From: a virus
Length of the DNA stretch: 30,939 nucleotides
IMG/VR virus record: IMGVR_UViG_3300020180_000090
Location: 1-30,939 of that record
Direction: 5' to 3' (one strand)
Every line of letters begins with the position of its first letter. Position 1 is the first letter of the stretch. Shown piece by piece: positions 4,758 to 30,939 of the stretch. The notes below the pieces were generated by a model. That model saw only the letters and a list, made by a program, of their open reading frames with translations. It was not told the origin of the DNA and made no database searches. Position numbers and translations under genes: made by a program.

Positions 4758-4846
4758 AAGGTAGGCACGAGCGAAAGCACGTGCATATATCGCCTTAGAC
4801 CTTGTGTCTAGGGTACAGGGAGCTCTGGTGGGAATTCCTTGTACCC
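4758..4846 (+). ncRNA. Structured 5' leader with two hairpins, candidate cis-regulatory RNA
   Basis: Hairpin A: GCACGAGC (4765-4772), GAAA tetraloop (4773-4776), GCACGTGC (4777-4784), one A/A mismatch, flanked by AAGGT (4758-4762) pairing with ACCTT (4799-4803). Hairpin B: GGGTACAGGGA (4811-4821) pairs with TTCCTTGTACCC (4835-4846) through G-U allowances, giving a stem of about 11-12 bp that ends 5 nt before the ATG at 4852. A GNRA tetraloop and a long stem close to the start codon suggest translational control or a protein-bound leader. It matches no riboswitch class I recognise. Confidence 0.5.
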
Positions 4847-4851
4847 TGAAT

Positions 4852-5337
4852 ATGAAGTTATCTCTACGTGCTATCGGACTCTACTCCTTATTACAAAAGC
4901 CTAAATACATGGCTGAGATTATTGAGTTAACAACAGATATGGAGACGGCAGTCATCGGGGCTTTCAATGAGTTAGTAAAGAACAAGAGAGGTGTGCTCCT
5001 CAACGACATGTACTACGCTACAGAAGAACACGGGTCCATGGAGCTAAAAGAGAGGTTCCATAAGCTTTTCGTTATGACTCGGACATACGCGATTATACTG
5101 TGGTGGTATGAGGAACTTATCGAAACACTGGGGTATAATATAGACTTCGGGGACGATCATAATATGAGAGAGATGGTGGAGCGTGAGTACGCTACAGCAA
5201 GAGAACTCTCATACAAAACAACCGACCAAGACCTATATGAATCTTTCAAAACTATGGCGAAAAATATGGACAAGGACGAGAAGACTATACCTCGTCTGTC
5301 TGGATTGTTTGACTACTCCAAGAGAATTGACAGGTAG
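4852..5337 (+). CDS. Putative winged-helix DNA-binding protein
   Basis: 161 residues from the ATG at 4852, chosen over an in-frame GTG at 4804 because the latter lies inside the predicted leader hairpins. Residues 1-50 (MKLSLRAIGLYSLLQKP, then a helix with ELTTDMETAVIGAFNELVKNKRG) resemble the winged helix-turn-helix at the N-terminus of phage replisome-organiser and related regulators. The rest is helical and charged with no enzyme motif. Its end overlaps the following HNH endonuclease frame. A regulator acting with that endonuclease is possible; the match is modest. Confidence 0.45.
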   Translation: MKLSLRAIGLYSLLQKPKYMAEIIELTTDMETAVIGAFNELVKNKRGVLLNDMYYATEEHGSMELKERFHKLFVMTRTYAIILWWYEELIETLGYNIDFGDDHNMREMVEREYATARELSYKTTDQDLYESFKTMAKNMDKDEKTIPRLSGLFDYSKRIDR

Positions 5338-5950
5338 TCCAGGAGCTGGACTACGAAAGAACATCGATGATATCACTTCGAACGTACTGACGAACAAGCA
5401 ACTAGGTTCGCATATCGAGAGAATAACAAACAACTTTTACTCAGAGATTGCAAATCAGCTCGCAGTGCTCTCGTGGGACCTGTTCAACAGGACCCATAAC
5501 AGAGAAGTCGTGACTAAGTTTATGGATATAGCCTACTCTCTCGAATGCGAGTGGCGAGCTGTACACGTGAAAGAGTTACTATTCTGCAGACTGGTTAACC
5601 CAGATTCTTTAGATACGGTAGACTTCATGGAGATATACACACTGGACAGTAAGTACGCCTCCATGTTTGTGAAGCAATTGAAGTCGCTGCCTTATCGTGA
5701 GTACCTCACCACAAGTTATTGGAAAGCTATCCGTAGACGTATGCATCGGATATACAATGGTAAGTGTGCACACTGTGAAGAAACACAGCACTTAGAGGTA
5801 CACCACATGTGTTACAACTTCCTCGGTGAAGACCACCTACACCTTGATAACCTCATTGTCATGTGCAGGGCACATCACCAGCGATTCCACGATATTGATA
5901 ACATGAAGAAGCAGGTAAAAGAAAAGAAGTGGGGCAAGGTGGGGCAATAG
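5327..5950 (+). CDS. HNH endonuclease (uncertain start)
   Basis: The C-terminal third carries a clear HNH nuclease with a zinc knuckle: SYWKAIRRRMHRIYNGKCAHC, LEVHHMCYNFLGEDHLHLDNLIVMCRAHHQRFH. It would cut DNA as a homing-type enzyme. The open frame extends back to an ATG at 5183, but residues encoded upstream of about 5325 look like an out-of-frame reading of the preceding gene. No ATG lies at the boundary; TTG at 5327-5329, 6 bp before the upstream TAG, is the likeliest start. It could also be reached by a +1 shift from the previous gene, or a sequencing error may split one gene. A roughly 125-residue helical region precedes the HNH domain and is not recognised. Confidence 0.7.
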   Translation: MTGSPGAGLRKNIDDITSNVLTNKQLGSHIERITNNFYSEIANQLAVLSWDLFNRTHNREVVTKFMDIAYSLECEWRAVHVKELLFCRLVNPDSLDTVDFMEIYTLDSKYASMFVKQLKSLPYREYLTTSYWKAIRRRMHRIYNGKCAHCEETQHLEVHHMCYNFLGEDHLHLDNLIVMCRAHHQRFHDIDNMKKQVKEKKWGKVGQ

Positions 5951-6474: not shown

Positions 6475-7353
6475 ATGAAAAGCGTAACAGAATTAAGAAC
6501 GGTATATGCAGACTTTACTCGTAATTCCAATACTGCTCACGTGGACAAAGGAATAGACGCTATCAACAACGCAGCTTACCGTAGGCTTTATGGATTTGAT
6601 TATACTTTTTTGGAGCAGACCGAGATAGTAAACACTATAGCTTCTTTAGCAACATACCCAATACCTATCAACGTAGGTAAGATTAGATCCGTGTCAGCAC
6701 TGGTGGGTACTAGCCAGAAGTATGTACTACGAGAAGTGGCTACACGACAAGAGTGGGACCAATTATTTTATACACCAGTGGAGTCAAACATACCTGCATG
6801 GTTTTACATTGAGAACGACACGATTAGTGTGTACCCAATACCTTCTGATTCCAACGTACCTATCTACTTGAACTACAAAAAGAAGATGTACCCAGCTACA
6901 CAACCAGACTTTATCAACAACAACCTCCAGTTTACTAATGGGTCAAAGGTGGTGATGCTAACCGCTGGGGTACTTCCAACATGGATAAATATACAAGGAT
7001 ACGTAACCGACGAGAACGGTAGAGCATACAGTATCTCCACCAGGGATAGTGCTGTTCAACTAACGCTACACCAGAACTACCAAGGTGATACAGGGGTAAA
7101 AACTACTCTTATCTCGCAAGGATTGCTCTTCCCAGAAGGGCTAGAGTATCTACCCTTATACGATGCTGTCTCTGATTACTACCTGTCTCAAGAGGGTAAA
7201 TTAGACGCCTCAAACCTATGGAAAGCCCGGGCAGATGAACTAGTCGCAATGCTTAACAGTGAGTTCGGAATGAAGACGACTGACCTACATATTGTCATTA
7301 GAGACAAAGGTGGTTACGATCGATACAATCCGAACAACTACCCAGTTATTTGA
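6475..7353 (+). CDS. Head-tail adaptor protein (podovirus SU10-adaptor-like)
   Basis: 292 residues. The N-terminal part (MKSVTELRTVYADF, then DKGIDAINNAAYRRLYGFDYTFLEQTE) has the helical opening of phage adaptor proteins: a short helix, 'xxINxAyrxi', an aromatic segment and a beta 'TIxxLATYPIP' turn. A central beta-rich region (WFYIENDTISVYPIPS) and a C-terminal helix (DAVSDYYLSQEG, then LWKARADELVAMLN) complete the pattern. Such proteins form the ring under the portal. It is the first gene of the structural operon and is followed by an inserted HNH gene and a nozzle-like protein, consistent with tail-machine assembly. The family call is by pattern only. Confidence 0.55.
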   Translation: MKSVTELRTVYADFTRNSNTAHVDKGIDAINNAAYRRLYGFDYTFLEQTEIVNTIASLATYPIPINVGKIRSVSALVGTSQKYVLREVATRQEWDQLFYTPVESNIPAWFYIENDTISVYPIPSDSNVPIYLNYKKKMYPATQPDFINNNLQFTNGSKVVMLTAGVLPTWINIQGYVTDENGRAYSISTRDSAVQLTLHQNYQGDTGVKTTLISQGLLFPEGLEYLPLYDAVSDYYLSQEGKLDASNLWKARADELVAMLNSEFGMKTTDLHIVIRDKGGYDRYNPNNYPVI

Positions 7354-7365
7354 CATAATATATAT

Positions 7366-7950
7366 ATGTTGTACCATAACCATCAAAAAACAAGTTTAAG
7401 TATTGAGGTGCAGTGTAAAGCCTGTTCTACAATTTTCTATACAGTAAAGTCTAAGCAAGAAAGAGTTAAGTACTGCTCTAAGGCATGTAAGTTTCAAGGT
7501 ATCCCCTTAGAGGAAAGGTTCTGGAAAAAGGTAGATAAAACAAGTACCTGCTGGTTATGGACTGGAGCTAAAGTGAACAACGGATATGGTGTGGTAGCAA
7601 ACAAATACTCAAATATAAGAGCTCATGTGTATTCATATGAACTAGAAAATAAGGTTAAAGTTCCTAAGGGGATGCTTATATGCCACAAGTGTGACGTACC
7701 GTCCTGTGTGAACCCTGACCATTTGTTTATGGGTACGTCACAAGACAACTCGGATGACATGATCAAAAAAGGTAGAAAAGCTGTTGGTGTTGCTACTAAT
7801 AGGGCTAAGCTAACACCGAGTAGTGTTAGGAGTATGCGTAAGATGGTATCAAAAGGAATGTCTGACATTTCTATCTCTAAGGTGTTTAATGTTTCATCTG
7901 GGACAGTCTGGCAAGTTAAAAACAATAATGTGTGGAAACACGTAACATAG
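7366..7950 (+). CDS. Free-standing HNH homing endonuclease with zinc finger and HTH
   Basis: 194 residues. A zinc site C17-x2-C20 with C37-x3-C41 is followed by the HNH_3-type core at about 60-135 (CWLWTGA, RAHVYSYEL, LICHKCDVPSCVNPDHLFMG, DNSDDMIKKGR). A C-terminal helix-turn-helix at 150-190 (VRSMRKMVSKGMSDISISKVF) ends in KNNNVWKHV, typical of intron-encoded and free-standing homing nucleases, where it aids site recognition. The gene sits between adaptor and nozzle genes, with 12 bp and 1 bp spacing, as if inserted without disrupting them. A CATAAT box ends 6 bp before its ATG, so it may have its own near-leaderless promoter. Confidence 0.9.
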   Translation: MLYHNHQKTSLSIEVQCKACSTIFYTVKSKQERVKYCSKACKFQGIPLEERFWKKVDKTSTCWLWTGAKVNNGYGVVANKYSNIRAHVYSYELENKVKVPKGMLICHKCDVPSCVNPDHLFMGTSQDNSDDMIKKGRKAVGVATNRAKLTPSSVRSMRKMVSKGMSDISISKVFNVSSGTVWQVKNNNVWKHVT

Positions 7951-19151: not shown

Positions 19152-19640
19152 TTATGCGACCCTTCCGAAGTCTCCGTGATGTTGCTTGCTCCCCTCTTTG
19201 TACAGCTCGTGAGCTTCTTCTGCGGTTGGTCGTGTTCCGAGGTGGATTACCTTACCATTAAGGCATATTTTTGCAATGAAGCCTTTTCCATTTCGGAAAA
19301 CACCCTTGTATCCTGTGGTGTTGGTAGTCTGCATTCCTCTGTTCATGTTGTTTTGAGATGTCGTGCATAAACGTAAATTGGAGCGTTGATTGTTGAGAGT
19401 GTTATTGTCGATATGGTCGACTATTTGTCCTTTCTGTGCGTTCATAATGGCTCTGTGGAGTTTTACTGTTGCCCGTTTGCCATTGATAGTAACATTTCGT
19501 AACACTCTGAAACAGTTTCTGTCCCAAGATGCGTACCAGTTATACTGATTCAACTCCTCGTACATGTCGTCATCTACCATAGCGAATTGTCCTTGCGTGA
19601 GCTGTATAAGTTTCATAGCTTTATTCCGCATTAACCCCAT
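19152..19640 (-). CDS. HNH endonuclease with AP2-type DNA-binding domain
   Basis: 162 residues. The conserved opening KLIQLTQGQFAMVDDDMYEE, then NWYAS, leads to the HNH core (KLHRAIMN, IVDHIDNNTLNNQRSNLRLC) and a C-terminal AP2-like beta domain (GYKGVFRNGKGFIAKICLNG, then LGTRPTAEEAHELY). This is a common free-standing mobile nuclease of phages and bacteria. The ATG at 19640 follows the upstream TAG by one base; an internal ATG eight codons later is where family similarity begins and may be the real start. Confidence 0.88.
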   Translation of the reverse strand: MGLMRNKAMKLIQLTQGQFAMVDDDMYEELNQYNWYASWDRNCFRVLRNVTINGKRATVKLHRAIMNAQKGQIVDHIDNNTLNNQRSNLRLCTTSQNNMNRGMQTTNTTGYKGVFRNGKGFIAKICLNGKVIHLGTRPTAEEAHELYKEGSKQHHGDFGRVA

Positions 19641-23694: not shown

Positions 23695-23704
23695 GGGGAC
23701 TATT

Positions 23705-23746
23705 TGGTGTGATTCTTGTGGTGTGATTCTTGTGGTGTGATTCTTG
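23705..23746 (+). repeat. Three perfect 14-bp tandem repeats
   Basis: TGGTGTGATTCTTG repeated at 23705, 23719 and 23733 without spacer, starting 10 bp after the primase-helicase stop codon. Confidence 0.9.
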
Positions 23747-23761
23747 ATTTACCCCTACACT

Positions 23762-23800
23762 TTTTGGGATTTGGAGAGCCACATTTTGGGATTTGGAGAG
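23762..23800 (+). repeat. Two 17-bp direct repeats, 22-bp period
   Basis: TTTTGGGATTTGGAGAG at 23762-23778 and 23784-23800, about two helical turns apart, suggesting same-face protein binding. Confidence 0.85.
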
Positions 23801-24064
23801 ACACACCGAGAGGGGTGGTTTTTTGAGAGGACTTTGGGCCATTGACGGAATTGGGATGTGTGGTGAATGTGAAAACTGTAGGGGTTGTAGGGTTATTTGC
23901 CCCTACTTCCCATTAGGGCCATATTTTTATTTTATTTTTGTATTTTAGTACTGTTTACCCCTACTCCCCCTACAATAATTATAATAATATTAAATATATC
24001 TAGTAAAAGAAGGGAGTGTAGGTATGGTGACAAGGGAAAATGGTGTAGGGGCAAATAAATTTTG

Positions 24065-24169
24065 CCCCTACTAGCCCCTACTAGCCCCTACAGACTTTTT
24101 TCAATTATTGAAGTTCTGGCTGATAGTGGAATTTGACCCTACTGCCCCTACAACCCCTACAACCCCTAC
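24065..24169 (+). repeat. Phased CCCCTAC iteron arrays
   Basis: Three copies at 10-bp spacing (24065, 24075, 24085) with CCCCTACTAG units and three at 9-bp spacing (24145, 24154, 24163) with CCCCTACAA units. Confidence 0.85.
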
Positions 24170-24355
24170 AAACTTGACAACCCCTATGCCCTTGTGGTCA
24201 ATGAGCCCTTACAGATCCCTTATCCCTTACCCCTATAGAGTAGTGTCAAGTGTAAAAAAAATCTTTTGTAAAAAATCAAAATAAAATAAAAAAAATAAAA
24301 TAAAAAAACACCATACAGGCTTGAGGTATATCAACTGTATACTAACTGTATATAC

Positions 24356-24388
24356 TTGACGTAGGTCAACAGTATGCTATACTTGACG
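24356..24388 (+). promoter_or_regulatory. Promoter of the amidoligase cassette
   Basis: TTGACG (24356-24361), 16 bp, TATACT (24378-24383), with TGAC-N4-GTCA (24357-24368) over the -35. A second TTGACG (24383-24388) follows directly. The leader to the ATG at 24429 is AT-rich. Confidence 0.65.
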
Positions 24389-24428
24389 GGTAGTAATAAG
24401 GCTACACAATAAAAAATATATATTATAT

Positions 24429-25250
24429 ATGCAAGATAAATTTTTGAATGGTCAATACGGGATCGAATTTGAGATGATAAAAAAAGTGAGTGAGCGTATT
24501 GGTAATGGTAAATACTTTACCCATTGCGGGGACGGTTCAATTAGTGGTTGCGACAGTGGCGAGCATGGTATCGAATATAAAACTAGAATACTTGACGGGA
24601 CAAAGTGGCACGTTGTCAAGCGGTTTCTGAATCGGTGCAAAACTGCAGTGGTCAACAGGTCAACAGGTTTGCATATCCATTTCGGTATACATGATAGACT
24701 AGATCACGATGAGCGAGTTGTAACACTTGACAGGTTCGAGTTACTAGTACAATTTATCGTAAGGCATGAAGATTTAATATTTTCACTAGTACCAAAGTCA
24801 AGGCGTAACAATAAATACTGTAAAAGTATGAAGCCAATAGTTACTGGTATATGTGCTAGATGTAATGGCACTGGTGACTGTGAGCGTGATAGTGATGAGG
24901 ATTGTGATTGTGATTGTGACTGCACATGTAATGATTCAATACTTGAAAAGTGGACGGGTAGCAGGTATTACTGGGTCAATATTCAAAATGTACCACAACA
25001 CCATAATGCGCATATTGAAGTGAGACTACACAGCGGGACGTTGTCATATATAAAAACAAAATACTGGCATGACTTGATGTATAAATTTTTACAATATGGA
25101 TATTATCACCCATATATGCATTTCAAATCACTGCATGATATGTTGGACGGGTTGGACATTGACAAGGTACAGCAGTTGCACTGGTATCAGAGACGGGACA
25201 TGTTTAACAGTGGTCAAGTGGTATCGAATAGCGATACCGAGATAGAATAA
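24429..25250 (+). CDS. Amidoligase (COOH-NH2 ligase, glutamine-synthetase-like fold)
   Basis: 273 residues matching the Amidoligase_2 pattern: YGIEFEM (10-16) with metal-binding acids, DGSI with later HGIEYKTRIL (47-55), STGLHIHFGI (78-87), and WVNIQNVPQHHNAHIEVRLHS near 182-202. Family members use ATP to join a carboxylate to an amine and are found with peptide- or cell-wall-modifying genes. An insertion at about 141-167 carries CARCNGTGDC and a run of Asp-Cys pairs (DCDCDCDCTC), a possible metal site, encoded by a GATTGT-type tandem repeat. The stop is 1 bp before the amidotransferase ATG. The cassette lies between the candidate origin and AT-rich DNA, so it looks inserted. Confidence 0.8.
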   Translation: MQDKFLNGQYGIEFEMIKKVSERIGNGKYFTHCGDGSISGCDSGEHGIEYKTRILDGTKWHVVKRFLNRCKTAVVNRSTGLHIHFGIHDRLDHDERVVTLDRFELLVQFIVRHEDLIFSLVPKSRRNNKYCKSMKPIVTGICARCNGTGDCERDSDEDCDCDCDCTCNDSILEKWTGSRYYWVNIQNVPQHHNAHIEVRLHSGTLSYIKTKYWHDLMYKFLQYGYYHPYMHFKSLHDMLDGLDIDKVQQLHWYQRRDMFNSGQVVSNSDTEIE

Positions 25251-25251
25251 T

Positions 25252-26241
25252 ATGTGTGGCATAATTTCTAACTTTTATCACAAACCGATTGACGGGAAGG
25301 ATAACAAGGCTATCATTGCAAAACAATATTACAAACAGCAGTCACGGGGAACGCAAGGGGCTGGATATATTGTAATAGATAACGATAACAAAATACATGT
25401 ACATCGAGACAGCAACAACACAAACGCATTGATACAACTAGCAAAATATGAATATGTGAAGGCATGTATTTTTCACCATAGGTTCCCGACAAGTACCGAT
25501 AATATTGCACAGTGTAGTCACCCGATACATGTATCAATAAAGGGACTTAAATATGATTACTATGTGGTACATAATGGCGTCATAAATAATGATGATGCAC
25601 TGAAACTGGTTCATAATAAAGAAGGTATTGTATATAATACCGAGCACGTCCAGGTGGACGGCACAACGTACACGTTTAACAATGGTGATACATACGAATC
25701 CAACAGTGACAGCACACGATACAATGATAGCGAGGGCATAGCGATAGAGTATGCACGATTGATCGAAAATAAAGTTACAACACTTGAGCATGTTACAGGT
25801 AGCTATGCACTCATGGCGGTACAGGTTGACAGGAAGACAAAGAAGGCGGTTGCGGTATATAGTTATCGTAACAGTTTGAACCCATTGAAGTTATCGGGTG
25901 ACTACGTGTTTTCACTAGCTAGTGAAAATACAGGGACTGATATAGTTGCTGGACGGTTATACACTTGCGACATGCAAGGCGTGATTACTGATAGGCTGGT
26001 AATTGAATACTTGCCCGTCACGTCGCAAGCTGGTTTCTATAAGGGGACGACAAGTACCACGTACATGGGTACATTGCCATGGACTGATGATGATGAAGAG
26101 TATAATGCACCATATAGTGAGATGGCTGATTATGACAAACTAGATGCACTGTATGACGAATTCAAGCGAGCCAAGACCAGGGCGGACACAAAGCGTATAA
26201 AGCGTGAGATTGATACACTGGAGGCAGTACTGTGGCGGTAG
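25252..26241 (+). CDS. Class II glutamine amidotransferase (Ntn-type)
   Basis: 329 residues beginning MCGI, so C2 becomes the N-terminal nucleophile after Met removal. HHRFPTSTDN (75-84), SHPIHV (89-94), YYVVHNGVINN (103-113) and GSYALMAV complete the class II glutaminase domain, which releases ammonia from glutamine. No SIS or asparagine-synthetase domain follows; the last 100 residues end in a charged coiled coil (YDEFKRAKTRADTKRIKRE) and may dock a partner. Placed 1 bp after the amidoligase, it probably supplies ammonia to it or remodels an amide. Such pairs were predicted from comparative genomics; the substrate is unknown. Confidence 0.85.
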   Translation: MCGIISNFYHKPIDGKDNKAIIAKQYYKQQSRGTQGAGYIVIDNDNKIHVHRDSNNTNALIQLAKYEYVKACIFHHRFPTSTDNIAQCSHPIHVSIKGLKYDYYVVHNGVINNDDALKLVHNKEGIVYNTEHVQVDGTTYTFNNGDTYESNSDSTRYNDSEGIAIEYARLIENKVTTLEHVTGSYALMAVQVDRKTKKAVAVYSYRNSLNPLKLSGDYVFSLASENTGTDIVAGRLYTCDMQGVITDRLVIEYLPVTSQAGFYKGTTSTTYMGTLPWTDDDEEYNAPYSEMADYDKLDALYDEFKRAKTRADTKRIKREIDTLEAVLWR

Positions 26242-26250
26242 AGATGACAA

Positions 26251-26284
26251 ACAAGATACATGCTAGCAATAGCATGTATTTTGT
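26251..26284 (+). terminator. Terminator after the amidoligase cassette
   Basis: ATACATGCTA (26256-26265), GCAA tetraloop, TAGCATGTAT (26270-26279), a perfect 10-bp stem with outer ACAA/TTGT pairing; the tail has TTTTG. Confidence 0.8.
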
Positions 26285-26488
26285 TATGTATGTGATATCG
26301 CACAATGTAATAAAAACGATATGCGAAGCGGATAGGAGATGTTAAAAGGCAGTTTTACTTTCTCTTTGACTTCTTCTCCTCACAATAAAAAATTTACCAA
26401 AATTTTTCAACGCTTGACCAATTTTCTCGCAAAAAAAAAAAATTTTACACGAAGTTTTATTTTTGCTTAACGGGGGTTAATTGCTTGA

Positions 26489-26586: not shown

Positions 26587-27063
26587 ATGTTATCCCCGTA
26601 TTCAGACAGGAACTCAGTCGGACTCTCCCAACAAGTAGCTGACATTATGCAATTAGATGAAAAGACGAGCGAAGCTCTGTTTTTCCTCTGCGATAATATG
26701 TCGACTGCAGGTCATGGAGAGACATTCCAAGACATATACGACTTTGTACTCACCGTACACCCCAAGATTAACTCGAAGAGGTTATTTGAGTCATACGAGA
26801 AGTATTTTCAGCTGCGCTTGGCGAAGCAAGCGTTGGAGAAAAGTCTTGAACAGGGCAACGCAAGTGTTATCAAGAAAGCCCTAGATGACCTAGAGTCGTT
26901 CAATATCAACCCACCAGACCAGATCGTTACGGATACACTAACGGACCAGCAGGAACAGGTCCTCAGAGGCTATATGGACATGTTGGACAGTTACGAAGTG
27001 ATGTACAAGGACCTATATAAGGACCAGGAAGACCAAACCAAACCGGAAGTGTATGAGCTATAG
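26587..27063 (+). CDS. Putative small terminase subunit
   Basis: 158 residues from the ATG at 26587 (MLSPYSDRNSVGLSQQVADI); the frame stays open upstream but reads through the hairpin repeats, so the shorter start fits the promoter. The N-terminal region LSQQVADIMQLDEKTSEALF resembles an HTH-type DNA-recognition domain; the middle is helical (KRLFESYEKYFQLRLAKQAL) and the C-terminus acidic (DLYKDQEDQTKPEVYEL). Size, helical makeup and position directly before and overlapping the large terminase suggest the DNA-recognising subunit, but no family signature is decisive. Confidence 0.45.
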   Translation: MLSPYSDRNSVGLSQQVADIMQLDEKTSEALFFLCDNMSTAGHGETFQDIYDFVLTVHPKINSKRLFESYEKYFQLRLAKQALEKSLEQGNASVIKKALDDLESFNINPPDQIVTDTLTDQQEQVLRGYMDMLDSYEVMYKDLYKDQEDQTKPEVYEL

Positions 27064-29671
27064 CTCCTCGACGGAGTCGAGGGGTACTAGCCCCTCGACG
27101 GAGTCGAGGGGAAGTAGCTCTCAAGAAATAAAGATGGTAATTACTCTCCAGCAGGACTTAGTCGGGCTACTTCTCCGGTTGTCCAAGGAGCGTCCAGAAA
27201 TCCGTAGAGCGGTACTAGCTCACAAGACCTTTGGTCTTACACTCTACGCACTCATGTATCACACCGCGAAGCTCACCTACCCGTTCTCCAAGACCCATTT
27301 GAACTACCTGTATGACCTACAACGGCTACTCACACCAAGCCACCCACACTCCTTGTCTACCTTGTTGGTCATCGGAGGGAGAGCTCAAGCAAAAACCGCG
27401 TTAGCGGTGATTGCGATGGAGTTCTCGATAACGATGTCGCTCCAGAAGTACACGGTCATCACGGCTACAGATCCCCAGAACTCATCGGAATACTTGTATT
27501 CCATCAAGAACAACCTGCTCACCGATCCATACCTGAAGCGTGACTTTGGTGCTTTGATACCGACATCCCGAGTCAACCAAGACACCAAGGCGGTAAATCG
27601 ACAAAAAGCCCAGGACTTCATCGCTGAGAATCCTCTCCGATCTCGATTCGAAGCCATCTCTACCCAGCAATCTCTGAGAGGGCGTTTGTATGATGGTAGC
27701 AGAATCACGACGATTCTCTTGGATGACATCGAGACAATCACTACGGTACGTAGTGAAGTTATAACAAACCAAATCATCAATCAAGTCAAGGAGTCAGAGA
27801 ATGCGGTAGCAGACAATCACTCTATATTACTACTTGGTAACAAGCTCTCTAACTTCTCCAACGTCGCCCAGTTGGAGCGGAAGTACAAATCACTTCCACA
27901 CACCAAGATCATCAGGATACCGTTATACGACGATGACTATAAGATAATATGGGACACCAAGTTCGTACACAGTACCGAGGAAGCTAACCGACTCAACGAG
28001 AAGTACAAGGTGAACCTCCAGTCGGTCCAAGCTATCCGAGAGCGTAACGATAAGCTCACGTTCGCTGCGGAGCATCTTGCAAGTCCTCTCGATAACTTAC
28101 TAGCTATATTCAAACCAGAGATGTTCAGGCACCACCCAATAGAAGATTTGGAAAAGAACCACCATGATATTTCTTACATCTTCATATCTTTGGACACCGC
28201 AGTTACAGCAGAGACCAGTAGCGATAACACAGGAATTACCATTCGGTACCATAACCACACAACACCGAACAAGCACTATGTGCATACATATGGTGTGAAG
28301 TTGTTACCGGAACAGCTCTTTAATCACATCAAGAACATCTACACCACACTACGTGCAGACTTTCCAGAGGCAACGATTCAGGCAGGATGGGAAAAAACCA
28401 TGCAGACCCAGACATTAACGCAGTTCTGGGCCATCTACAGGAAGGAACACAACTTGGCGTTGCATATGTATGAGTTTGAGCACAAGTCGAAGAAGAAGGA
28501 GGATAGGATCCTGTCATCGTTGTTACATCGGTACGAGACGGGGAAGATGTACCATCTCACGCGAGAGAACAGGAACTTGTGCAAGGACCTAGAACAGGAG
28601 TTGGTGCTCTTCCCAGAGCTCAATAAAACGGATGACCTTTGTCTAGCAGGAGACACGTTGGTGGAGACAACGGTAGGTACGGTACGAATAGACGAAATCA
28701 CAACAAGCCATCAGGTTCTAACACGCAAAGGACCAAGACGAGTACTCTGGGCTGGTCAAACAGGGTGTCATCCAGTAATTACGAATATGGGAATTACGGG
28801 TACACCGAACCATCCAGTAATCACACAAGACGGAGTTAAGGAATTGAGATATGTCAGCGAGTCTGATATACTCTTCATATGGAACCAATCAAAGATGGAA
28901 GTAGAGAATATGTCATATACAAGGGTAAAAAATGGAACAGGTACCCTGAGTCTTCAAGAAAACATCTCAGGGTGTATTACACTCATCACTTCAATGCAGG
29001 GTCTCCAAGGGCACTACACAGAGAAATCTACGCAGACACACATGGAAAGATTCCTAAAGGTATGCACATCGATCATATCAACGGTAACCCACTGGACAAC
29101 AGGATTGAAAACTTGCAGTGCCTCACAAGTAAAGAACACAACAAGAAGACAAGGGAGCAAAACCCAGAATTCGTGGAGAAAATGCGTAAGTACAATTCAG
29201 ACAACCATGACAGACTCCACGAGGACCGCCAAGACTGGGCTAAGACAGCAGAAGGTAAAAAATGGTATACCGAGCATACAAAGCACAGCATACACAAACA
29301 GCGAGACATCATATGCAAATGGTGCTTTGTTAAGTGTGTTACCATCACATCAAACGGGAACTCATGCAGAAGTAGACCATGTCTACTTGCAAGAGGTCGA
29401 GACGAACAAAATAAGATACGAGCTAGACGAAGAGCTAGGGAGCAAGGTATATAACTTGACGATTGAGGGCGAGCATGAGTTTTTCGCTAATGGAATTTTG
29501 GTTCACAACTGTGACAGTTTGAGCTATAGCTTTGCACCTATCTTCGAGATGAAGTTGTCGTCTACGGACTGGGCAGAAATGATCGCAACATCTCCCAAGA
29601 GACAACGTGCACAAGAGACACAAAGCTTGTTTCAAAAAAGAGGAATTGACCTAGGTCGTCAAACACGATAA
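27053..29671 (+). CDS. Terminase large subunit precursor interrupted by an intein
   Basis: 872 residues; the spliced protein would be 582. It packages DNA into the head. The ATPase has a deviant Walker A, GGRAQAKT (108-115, Ala for the usual second Gly), and Walker B ILLDDIE (221-227). The nuclease has SLDTAVTAETSSDNTG (D381, D391). The last nuclease motif, TDDL-CDSLSYSF (the D-D-x-x-D-x-L-x-Y motif), is split by the intein at residues 530-819. The Ser-rich first 27 residues are encoded by a tandem hairpin; MVITLQQDLV at 27134 is an alternative start. It overlaps the upstream gene by 11 bp. Confidence 0.85.
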   Translation: MSYSSSTESRGTSPSTESRGSSSQEIKMVITLQQDLVGLLLRLSKERPEIRRAVLAHKTFGLTLYALMYHTAKLTYPFSKTHLNYLYDLQRLLTPSHPHSLSTLLVIGGRAQAKTALAVIAMEFSITMSLQKYTVITATDPQNSSEYLYSIKNNLLTDPYLKRDFGALIPTSRVNQDTKAVNRQKAQDFIAENPLRSRFEAISTQQSLRGRLYDGSRITTILLDDIETITTVRSEVITNQIINQVKESENAVADNHSILLLGNKLSNFSNVAQLERKYKSLPHTKIIRIPLYDDDYKIIWDTKFVHSTEEANRLNEKYKVNLQSVQAIRERNDKLTFAAEHLASPLDNLLAIFKPEMFRHHPIEDLEKNHHDISYIFISLDTAVTAETSSDNTGITIRYHNHTTPNKHYVHTYGVKLLPEQLFNHIKNIYTTLRADFPEATIQAGWEKTMQTQTLTQFWAIYRKEHNLALHMYEFEHKSKKKEDRILSSLLHRYETGKMYHLTRENRNLCKDLEQELVLFPELNKTDDLCLAGDTLVETTVGTVRIDEITTSHQVLTRKGPRRVLWAGQTGCHPVITNMGITGTPNHPVITQDGVKELRYVSESDILFIWNQSKMEVENMSYTRVKNGTGTLSLQENISGCITLITSMQGLQGHYTEKSTQTHMERFLKVCTSIISTVTHWTTGLKTCSASQVKNTTRRQGSKTQNSWRKCVSTIQTTMTDSTRTAKTGLRQQKVKNGIPSIQSTAYTNSETSYANGALLSVLPSHQTGTHAEVDHVYLQEVETNKIRYELDEELGSKVYNLTIEGEHEFFANGILVHNCDSLSYSFAPIFEMKLSSTDWAEMIATSPKRQRAQETQSLFQKRGIDLGRQTR
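27066..27111. repeat. Tandem 19-bp palindromic repeat at the terminase start
   Basis: CCTCGACGGAGTCGAGGGG at 27066-27084 and 27093-27111 (27-bp period, nine codons). Each folds CTCGAC-GGA-GTCGAG; the second copy has a 9-bp stem (27091-27111). In frame it encodes STESRG twice. No T-run, so not a terminator; it may control translation of the large subunit. Confidence 0.85.
28844..28872 (+). promoter_or_regulatory. Promoter inside the intein for the nested HNH gene
   Basis: TTGAGA (28844-28849), exact 17-bp spacer, TATACT (28867-28872), each box one base from the sigma-70 consensus. The -10 ends 6 bp before the ATG at 28879, predicting a transcript starting at that ATG. The HNH frame has a TGA at 28864-28866, so read-in from upstream is blocked. 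Confidence 0.65.
28879..29454 (+). CDS. HNH homing endonuclease nested in the intein in another frame
   Basis: 191 residues, wholly inside the terminase/intein gene but in the -1 frame relative to it. Residues 10-45 (EYVIYKGKKWNRYPESSRKH, then FNAGSPRALHREIYADTHG) lead to the HNH core KGMHIDHINGNPLDNRIENL, then KEHNKK (60-90; H66, N74, H87). A Cys set follows at 146, 149, 153 and 163. After about residue 163 the frame reads out-of-phase intein C-terminal DNA and ends RARRRAREQGI. It should cut intein-less terminase genes to spread the element. Own promoter, (T)CATATG start; no read-through from upstream is possible. Confidence 0.85.
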   Translation: MEPIKDGSREYVIYKGKKWNRYPESSRKHLRVYYTHHFNAGSPRALHREIYADTHGKIPKGMHIDHINGNPLDNRIENLQCLTSKEHNKKTREQNPEFVEKMRKYNSDNHDRLHEDRQDWAKTAEGKKWYTEHTKHSIHKQRDIICKWCFVKCVTITSNGNSCRSRPCLLARGRDEQNKIRARRRAREQGI

Positions 29672-30290: not shown

Positions 30291-30939
30291 ATGAACCCTC
30301 TCAAAAAACTAGCAGCGATGACCAATAGTATTTTCTCTCCGATAAACCGAGCACGTACGCAGGTTATCGATGGTGCACTGGACGGTGAGGAGCACGCACT
30401 ACAGATACTTCCAAGCGACTCAACGAAGGACAAGGAGTTACTAGAGCTATCACAAACATGGATGGACTCGTACAACAACTACCAGTCTAAGATAACCAAT
30501 CGGCAGGAGGCGAACTATAAGTATTGGAAAGGTACACAGCAACCGATGTACACGGAGAACGTGGACACGAGACGTCGTGTGGCGTCTAACATGATATTTG
30601 AGGCTACAGAGACATTCTTACCTGCAGCGACTAAGAACAACCCGGAATGTTACGCGACCATCGAGGATGAGTCAGAGGAGGCACAACGGTACACATCTCT
30701 TCTCAAGGATTTACTGAACCAGCAAGGAAAGCGACATGGGTTGAAATTCAAAATTCGGGACGCTACTAGAGGGTGGCTTTTTGACCTTATCGGGGTAATA
30801 GGTATTTCATGGTCAATGGCGCTAGACGATTTTGAGGTACAGAAGATAGAGGCGAAACGAATGATATTTGATGTGGAGGGGTATATCGACTGGGATGGTT
30901 CTTTCCAGGGTAGGTACTTGGGATACATACGAACAATGC
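30291..30939 (+). CDS. Portal protein, N-terminal part (runs off the right edge)
   Basis: 216 codons are visible. The start MNPLKKLAAMTNSIFSPINR is followed by an acidic helical stretch (WMDSYNNYQSKITNRQEANY), then RRVASNMIFEATETFLPAATKNNPECYA, the 'r.s.N.if...et..p.l.s.nP' motif typical of podovirus portal proteins, and a beta region GWLFDLIGVIGISWSM. The portal is the dodecameric ring for DNA entry and exit. Position two genes after the terminase agrees. A TATACT box ends 6 bp before the ATG, so it may have its own promoter. The C-terminal part is outside the window. Confidence 0.7.
   Translation, partial: MNPLKKLAAMTNSIFSPINRARTQVIDGALDGEEHALQILPSDSTKDKELLELSQTWMDSYNNYQSKITNRQEANYKYWKGTQQPMYTENVDTRRRVASNMIFEATETFLPAATKNNPECYATIEDESEEAQRYTSLLKDLLNQQGKRHGLKFKIRDATRGWLFDLIGVIGISWSMALDDFEVQKIEAKRMIFDVEGYIDWDGSFQGRYLGYIRTM

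Follow-up and report, generated by a model that had tools for sequence, protein, structure and literature searches.

A divergent two-gene amidoligase and glutamine amidotransferase pair in an unclassified phage, a putative glutamine-dependent amide synthetase

Introduction

What do two adjoining phage genes for an amide ligase and a glutaminase make together, and on which substrate do they act? The locus that raises this question lies in an IMG/VR virus record from an unclassified phage, classed as linear and 30,939 bases long, the whole of which is referred to here as the window. An earlier reading of the window made from its letters (the sequence-only reading) had placed the pair among combinations predicted by comparative genomics. 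This agrees with a pairing of amide ligase and Ntn glutaminase that Iyer et al. reportedly predicted in 2009, as relayed by the papers that cite it. Amidoligase clusters, predicted since that year, are found in hundreds of sequenced phages, and their two-gene version offers the simplest setting for tracking down the substrate. Amidoligase and glutamine amidotransferase (GATase) genes have already been described in LUZ24-like, OM43 and other phages, where a modification of the cell wall against superinfection was proposed; in the publications on these clusters we found no report testing the cell-wall idea or any substrate. Published annotation also lists both genes as auxiliary metabolic genes (PMC10580990; PMC10945688).

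Results

Two adjoining genes carry the signatures of a ligase and a glutaminase

The first gene (24429–25250, plus strand, 273 aa) encodes an Amidoligase_2 protein (PF12224), a COOH-NH2 ligase of the GS/GCS superfamily, as indicated by profiles, motifs and fold. It matched PF12224 with an E-value of 1.1e-10 and 42.2 bits against a curated cut-off of 22 (40.8 bits in a six-frame search of the window), and phrog_2443 'amidoligase enzyme' with 1.5e-14. Its motifs are GIEFE (E13, E15), E49, HIH (H82, H84), SRRNNKYC (R125) and IEVR (E197, R199). Motifs of the ExE, HxH and ExR type bind metal, ATP and the acyl phosphate in glutamine synthetase; in the window protein, E13, E15, E49, H82, H84, E197 and R199 are present, and they were kept in 94–96 of 98 amidoligase sequences. 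Across the same number of amidoligases, E13, E15, D35, S37, E49, H82, H84, E114, R125, E197 and R199 were each more than 90% conserved, and the window protein has all of them; judged by sequence, its motifs are those of active enzymes. A structure model of moderate confidence (pLDDT 65) had the GS-superfamily fold throughout, with a Z of 11.9 to glutamine synthetase. All top fold matches were GS, YbdK, GshF or PafA, and GCS was also among the matches. Searching the PDB by sequence with the ligase gave nothing useful.

One base separates the amidoligase stop (25250) from the ATG of the second gene (25252–26241, plus strand, 329 aa), so that both open reading frames and their 1 bp spacing were as the sequence-only reading had described them. 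This gene encodes a class II (Ntn) GATase according to NCBIfam, motifs and fold. It carries the motifs MCG, RG, R77..T80, HP, HNG and DS, with Cys2 as the predicted nucleophile once Met is removed. The match to a GlmS-type NCBIfam model (2.8e-9 over residues 1–196) was far under that model's whole-protein cut-off, and Pfam GATase_6 scored 17.5 bits with a cut-off of 27. C2, G3, R32, G33, R77, T80, N108, G109 and D159 were invariant across 24 GATases and are all present in the window protein. The structure model, again of moderate confidence (pLDDT 71), had a GlmS/PurF-type fold with a Foldseek E-value of 6.2e-11 to GlmS, and PurF and EgtC were among the matches; a PDB sequence search with the single GATase sequence gave nothing useful. 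Families, motifs and folds agree with the proposed ATP-dependent amide ligase and Ntn glutaminase, and the ligase metal-site and N-terminal Cys motifs, which had been set beforehand as the test of that proposal, were present at both the sequence and the fold level.

Each protein contains a segment that sets it apart from its relatives. In the ligase, nine Cys fall within 40 residues from position 131, and the densest part, CARCNGTGDCERDSDEDCDCDCDCTC (residues 142–167; 24852–24929, plus strand), follows the SRRNNKYC motif in the sequence comparison. A Cys-rich pattern at the matching place was seen in no other amidoligase examined; Cys-rich regions occur at other places in the ctRwf057 amidoligase and in a few bacterial proteins. 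The segment is possibly a metal-binding insert, in a part of the model where confidence is low. The ctRwf057 protein, from a phage with the pair only, is 684 aa long with a Cys-rich N-terminal region (L013:7642-9693). In the GATase, the alignment placed an insertion within residues 118–158, between the HNG and DS motifs (25603–25725, plus strand), which was absent from the compared homologs.

Flanking elements and genomic setting of the pair

The pair had been credited with its own promoter and terminator. A strong hairpin with a U-rich 3' arm at 26247–26289 (plus strand, z −5.2) is the likely terminator of the pair. The promoter-like site upstream (24356–24383, plus strand; TTGACG-16-TATACT, the second hexamer preceded by TG) is plausible but not above chance regionally, with 13 such sites in the region compared to 10.6 ± 3.0 in shuffles. 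Upstream of the pair and after the primase gene lies a long non-coding stretch (23695–24428) in which the 14-bp TGGTGTGATTCTTG is repeated exactly, three times in tandem, at 23705–23746, followed by eight copies of CCCCTACA on both strands (23752–24170) and then an A/T-rich run, a candidate origin or regulatory region. All eight CCCCTACA sites of the window fall in this interval, with about one expected by chance in the whole window. The repeat region that the sequence-only reading had taken for a candidate origin beside the pair is real, and its sequence features make 23695–24428 a candidate replication origin; we do not count it as part of the cassette.

Downstream, the pair precedes the genes for the terminase (27053) and the portal (30291), with one small open reading frame between pair and terminase. 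The portal-like protein (30291–30938) was identified via its relation to a TM7 phage protein that adjoins the terminase gene of that phage. The genome appears incomplete, because the portal-like reading frame runs off the end of the window, and further cluster genes could therefore sit in the missing part. Both the portal-like protein and an adaptor-like protein (6475–7353) matched a single annotated phage, the TM7 (Saccharibacteria) phage DolZOral124_53_65, with about 23% identity. We take this as a hint that the window phage comes from a lineage whose hosts are Patescibacteria or some related group, a lead and not a host assignment; profile searches did not find the amidoligase–GATase pair in DolZOral124_53_65.

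Composition did not bear out the self-contained cargo module that the sequence-only reading had seen in the pair: its genes have a slightly low GC content of 39–42%, compared to roughly 43–51% in neighbouring genes, and ordinary codon usage. The anti-defence and host-surface modification roles suggested there are likewise no more than possibilities. We found no obvious substrate gene in the window, in line with the sequence-only reading. DNA hypermodification was set aside, with no base-modification enzyme recognised among the scanned window proteins. PADLOC defence models gave zero matches to the pair up to an E-value of 1, an absence that proves little. Neither Rfam families nor tRNAs were found in the window.

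An intein and several HNH-type reading frames were seen elsewhere in the window. The intein interrupts the gene for the terminase large subunit (27053–29671; Pfam Intein_splicing, E 2.5e-7), and a strongly matching HNH_3 endonuclease reading frame (28879–29454, E 4e-18) lies inside this terminase/intein stretch in a different reading frame. Two more, free-standing HNH_3 genes are found at 7366–7950 in the tail region and at 19152–19640 in the minus-strand module. Two further reading frames, 4804–5337 and 5183–5950, overlap in different frames; the C-terminus of the latter is HNH-like by eye (CAHCEETQHLEVHH...C.AHH), and Pfam gave no match over the cut-off for either.

Single-sequence searches of IMG/VR with each protein of the pair returned zero relatives, as did the window primase and a portal alignment that included the TM7 phage. 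The terminase query found five loci, which were matched through its intein portion. A plasmid search gave zero matches.

The combination is widespread in phages, mostly as part of larger clusters

The survey of other phages did not support a view of the pair as notably rare or unusual; the pair is a reduced form of a system present in hundreds of them. Among 50,697 annotated phage records, the LUZ24 amidoligase had relatives in 312 and the LUZ24 amidotransferase in 342, and the two counts were nearly equal within each host genus. A GATase alignment found 80 IMG/VR loci, for which companion genes were counted within 8 kb. An amidoligase was present in 76/80; in the four remaining loci, the GATase lies within about 1 kb of the sequence end. 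An ATP-grasp ligase was likewise present in 76/80, a PF14395 COOH-NH2 ligase in 72/80, a Peptidase_C26-type protein in 42/80 and a gamma-glutamyl cyclotransferase (GGCT) in 34/80. The usual system is thus larger than the sequence-only reading had recognised, with two further ligases and a gamma-glutamyl-cleaving enzyme. Its commonest orders are C26-COOH-amidoligase-GATase-ATP-grasp and COOH-amidoligase-GATase-ATP-grasp-GGCT. Larger clusters are expressed, because proteomics of phage SU10 detected the ATP-grasp, GATase and cyclotransferase proteins (PMC4281155). The larger cluster of LUZ24, RIO-1 and phiEco32 has replication genes as neighbours and is away from head genes.

Peptidase_C26 and the cyclotransferase proved nearly mutually exclusive (p 1e-8; dereplicated p 5e-7): in the IMG/VR loci (L026–L105), 27 had only the former, 18 only the latter, 3 both and 2 neither. 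PuuD-like gamma-glutamyl hydrolases belong to the Peptidase_C26 family, and the two proteins behave as if they were interchangeable gamma-glutamyl-cleaving steps. This near-exclusion suggests cleavage of a gamma-glutamyl bond at some step in the pathway of the larger cluster. In the 31 kb of the window, from what appears to be an incomplete genome, the respective profiles detected no ATP-grasp ligase, PF14395 ligase, GGCT or Peptidase_C26; since the last two are missing, the exclusivity pattern weighs less for the window pair.

The two-gene form recurs and often lies near head genes

The window pair has the two-gene form: the genes are adjacent, on the same strand and amidoligase first, with no second ligase in 31 kb. 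In the complete phage genome ctRwf057 the pair stands alone, with no other ligase detected. Pairs without another ligase in the stretch read were also found in phage ctgrD200, OM43 phage MEP402, a Marvin-type mycobacteriophage and a faecal phage; for a Bifidobacterium phage the profile confirmed the GATase only. A genome scan with an amidoligase alignment gave 67 bacterial loci, mostly in Bacteroidota, a host range that is biased because the alignment was built around Bacteroidota-like sequences. In 32 of the 67, a class II GATase was next to the amidoligase or close by on its strand, usually 0–70 bp downstream, and a further ligase was not detected. No class II GATase was detected in the other 35 loci, and likewise in Porphyromonas phages.

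The sequence-only reading had also overlooked that head and packaging genes are frequent neighbours of the two-gene form. The pair of several Bacteroidota prophages is flanked by portal and scaffold/capsid genes or precedes the terminase by a few kb, and in five of them (L109, L112, L115, L118 and L170) it sits in the head operon between the portal and a scaffold-like gene (phrog_5824). A head or packaging gene was nearby in 17/32 pair loci compared to 4/35 amidoligase-alone loci (p 4e-4, kinship ignored), loci that are not independent because related prophages share gene order by descent.

A quick tree split the amidoligases into 70 from clusters and 45 from pairs or solo loci, and placed that of the window with the latter (99% SH-aLRT). 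The AU test did not reject a grouping of the window amidoligase with the cluster set (p 0.66), and therefore we claim no clade for it. In the GATase tree, the window sequence was too diverged to place (end branch 3.4), and the divergence in the broad alignments A1 and A2 was too great for their use as search queries. Taken by its sequences, the window pair is a divergent representative of an already known phage amidoligase–GATase combination in its smallest, two-gene form.

Discussion

We see an about even chance that the two proteins form a glutamine-dependent amide synthetase, in which the GATase would supply ammonia and the ligase would amidate a carboxylate. The Ntn glutaminase would hydrolyse glutamine with Cys2 and release ammonia, the GS-fold ligase would use ATP and Mg to activate the carboxylate as an acyl phosphate, and capture of the released ammonia, or of another small amine, by the ligase would yield the amide. 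We infer the physical coupling, the ammonia transfer and the acyl-phosphate step from established chemistry of the GS superfamily and class II GATases. The basis of this model is formed by the protein families, the conservation of the catalytic residues, the folds, the close spacing of the genes on one strand and the recurrence of the two-gene order elsewhere. Besides the moderate confidence of the structure models and the apparently incomplete genome, two points speak against it. The amidoligase need not depend on a class II GATase, because it is found without one in more than half of the bacterial loci (35/67) and in Porphyromonas phages, and class II folds include gamma-glutamyl hydrolases such as EgtC, which the structure model picked up as a GATase match.

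The latter point leads to the main rival, a gamma-glutamylation cycle, which we consider rather unlikely. Here the ligase would use the gamma-carboxyl of glutamate to couple it to an amine, and the glutamate would be taken off again by the Ntn enzyme as a gamma-glutamyl hydrolase, in the manner of EgtA/EgtC or PuuA/PuuD. The EgtC match of the GATase and the YbdK, GshF and GCS matches of the ligase fit such a cycle, as does the near-exclusivity of C26 and cyclotransferase in the larger cluster, which would be expected of interchangeable cleaving steps. However, the window has neither of these two enzymes, and its GATase family agrees best with the glutaminase domains of GlmS, PurF and asparagine synthetase. 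Motifs cannot separate a glutaminase from a gamma-glutamyl hydrolase, because both bind the gamma-glutamyl group.

Within the amide synthetase model, the target is the least certain part. A host-envelope carboxylate, for example in the peptidoglycan stem peptide, is perhaps the first choice by analogy; below it we would tentatively rank a virion head protein and then a soluble metabolite. That a head or packaging protein is amidated or cross-linked, a choice of target with the same chemistry, appears rather doubtful to us. The enrichment of head and packaging genes around the Bacteroidota prophage pairs (17/32 compared to 4/35) and the position of the window pair upstream of terminase and portal point towards it. 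This evidence, however, is one of neighbourhood, drawn from related prophage loci whose gene order is shared by descent, and the larger cluster in LUZ24, RIO-1 and phiEco32 keeps company with replication genes instead. More speculative still is a late-expressed two-gene amidation cassette that would act during assembly on a virion head protein or on the host envelope and whose ligase would choose its substrate by means of a metal-binding, Cys-rich insert; if true, it would be a phage protein or cell-wall modification of a kind not yet demonstrated. That the two genes are metabolic accessories with separate roles in nitrogen or amino-acid metabolism and no single pathway, as their published annotation as auxiliary metabolic genes (PMC10580990; PMC10945688) might imply, is very improbable given their near-constant adjacency across very diverged phages and the repeated two-gene occurrences.

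Two clues come from the survey: in Bacteroidota prophages, head genes are frequent neighbours of the two-gene form, and larger clusters nearly always have exactly one of two unrelated gamma-glutamyl-cleaving enzymes.

Comparison with known systems

Among cellular enzymes, EgtA/EgtC serve ergothioneine synthesis and PuuA/PuuD putrescine degradation. As in the window, both combine a ligase of the GS/GCS fold, here with a gamma-glutamyl-cleaving enzyme, and EgtC shares the Ntn fold of the GATase; they catalyse defined metabolic steps, whereas in the window we recognised no genes of an accompanying pathway. MurT/GatD and LtsA are known cell-wall amidation enzymes. They work in the way proposed for the window pair in that an ATP-dependent ligase and a glutaminase produce a primary amide, but their ligase folds are those of a Mur ligase or asparagine synthetase, and GatD is a class I glutaminase. 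For MurT/GatD, the role in cell-wall amidation is described in PMC3267633.

The LUZ24/phiEco32-type cluster (Amidoligase_2, PF14395 ligase, class II GATase, ATP-grasp, and GGCT or Peptidase_C26) has the two families of the window pair in common and the same usual order, amidoligase then GATase on one strand. The window differs in that ATP-grasp, PF14395, GGCT and Peptidase_C26 are absent from its 31 kb, and identity is about 20%. Closest in arrangement are the two-gene pairs of Bacteroidota prophages, ctRwf057, ctgrD200, MEP402 and Marvin-type mycobacteriophages, which share adjacency, order and the lack of another ligase with the window. Their proteins are roughly 20–32% identical to those of the window, whose insertions were not seen in those compared, and the Bacteroidota two-gene GATases are mostly short (about 170 aa), compared to 329 aa in the window.
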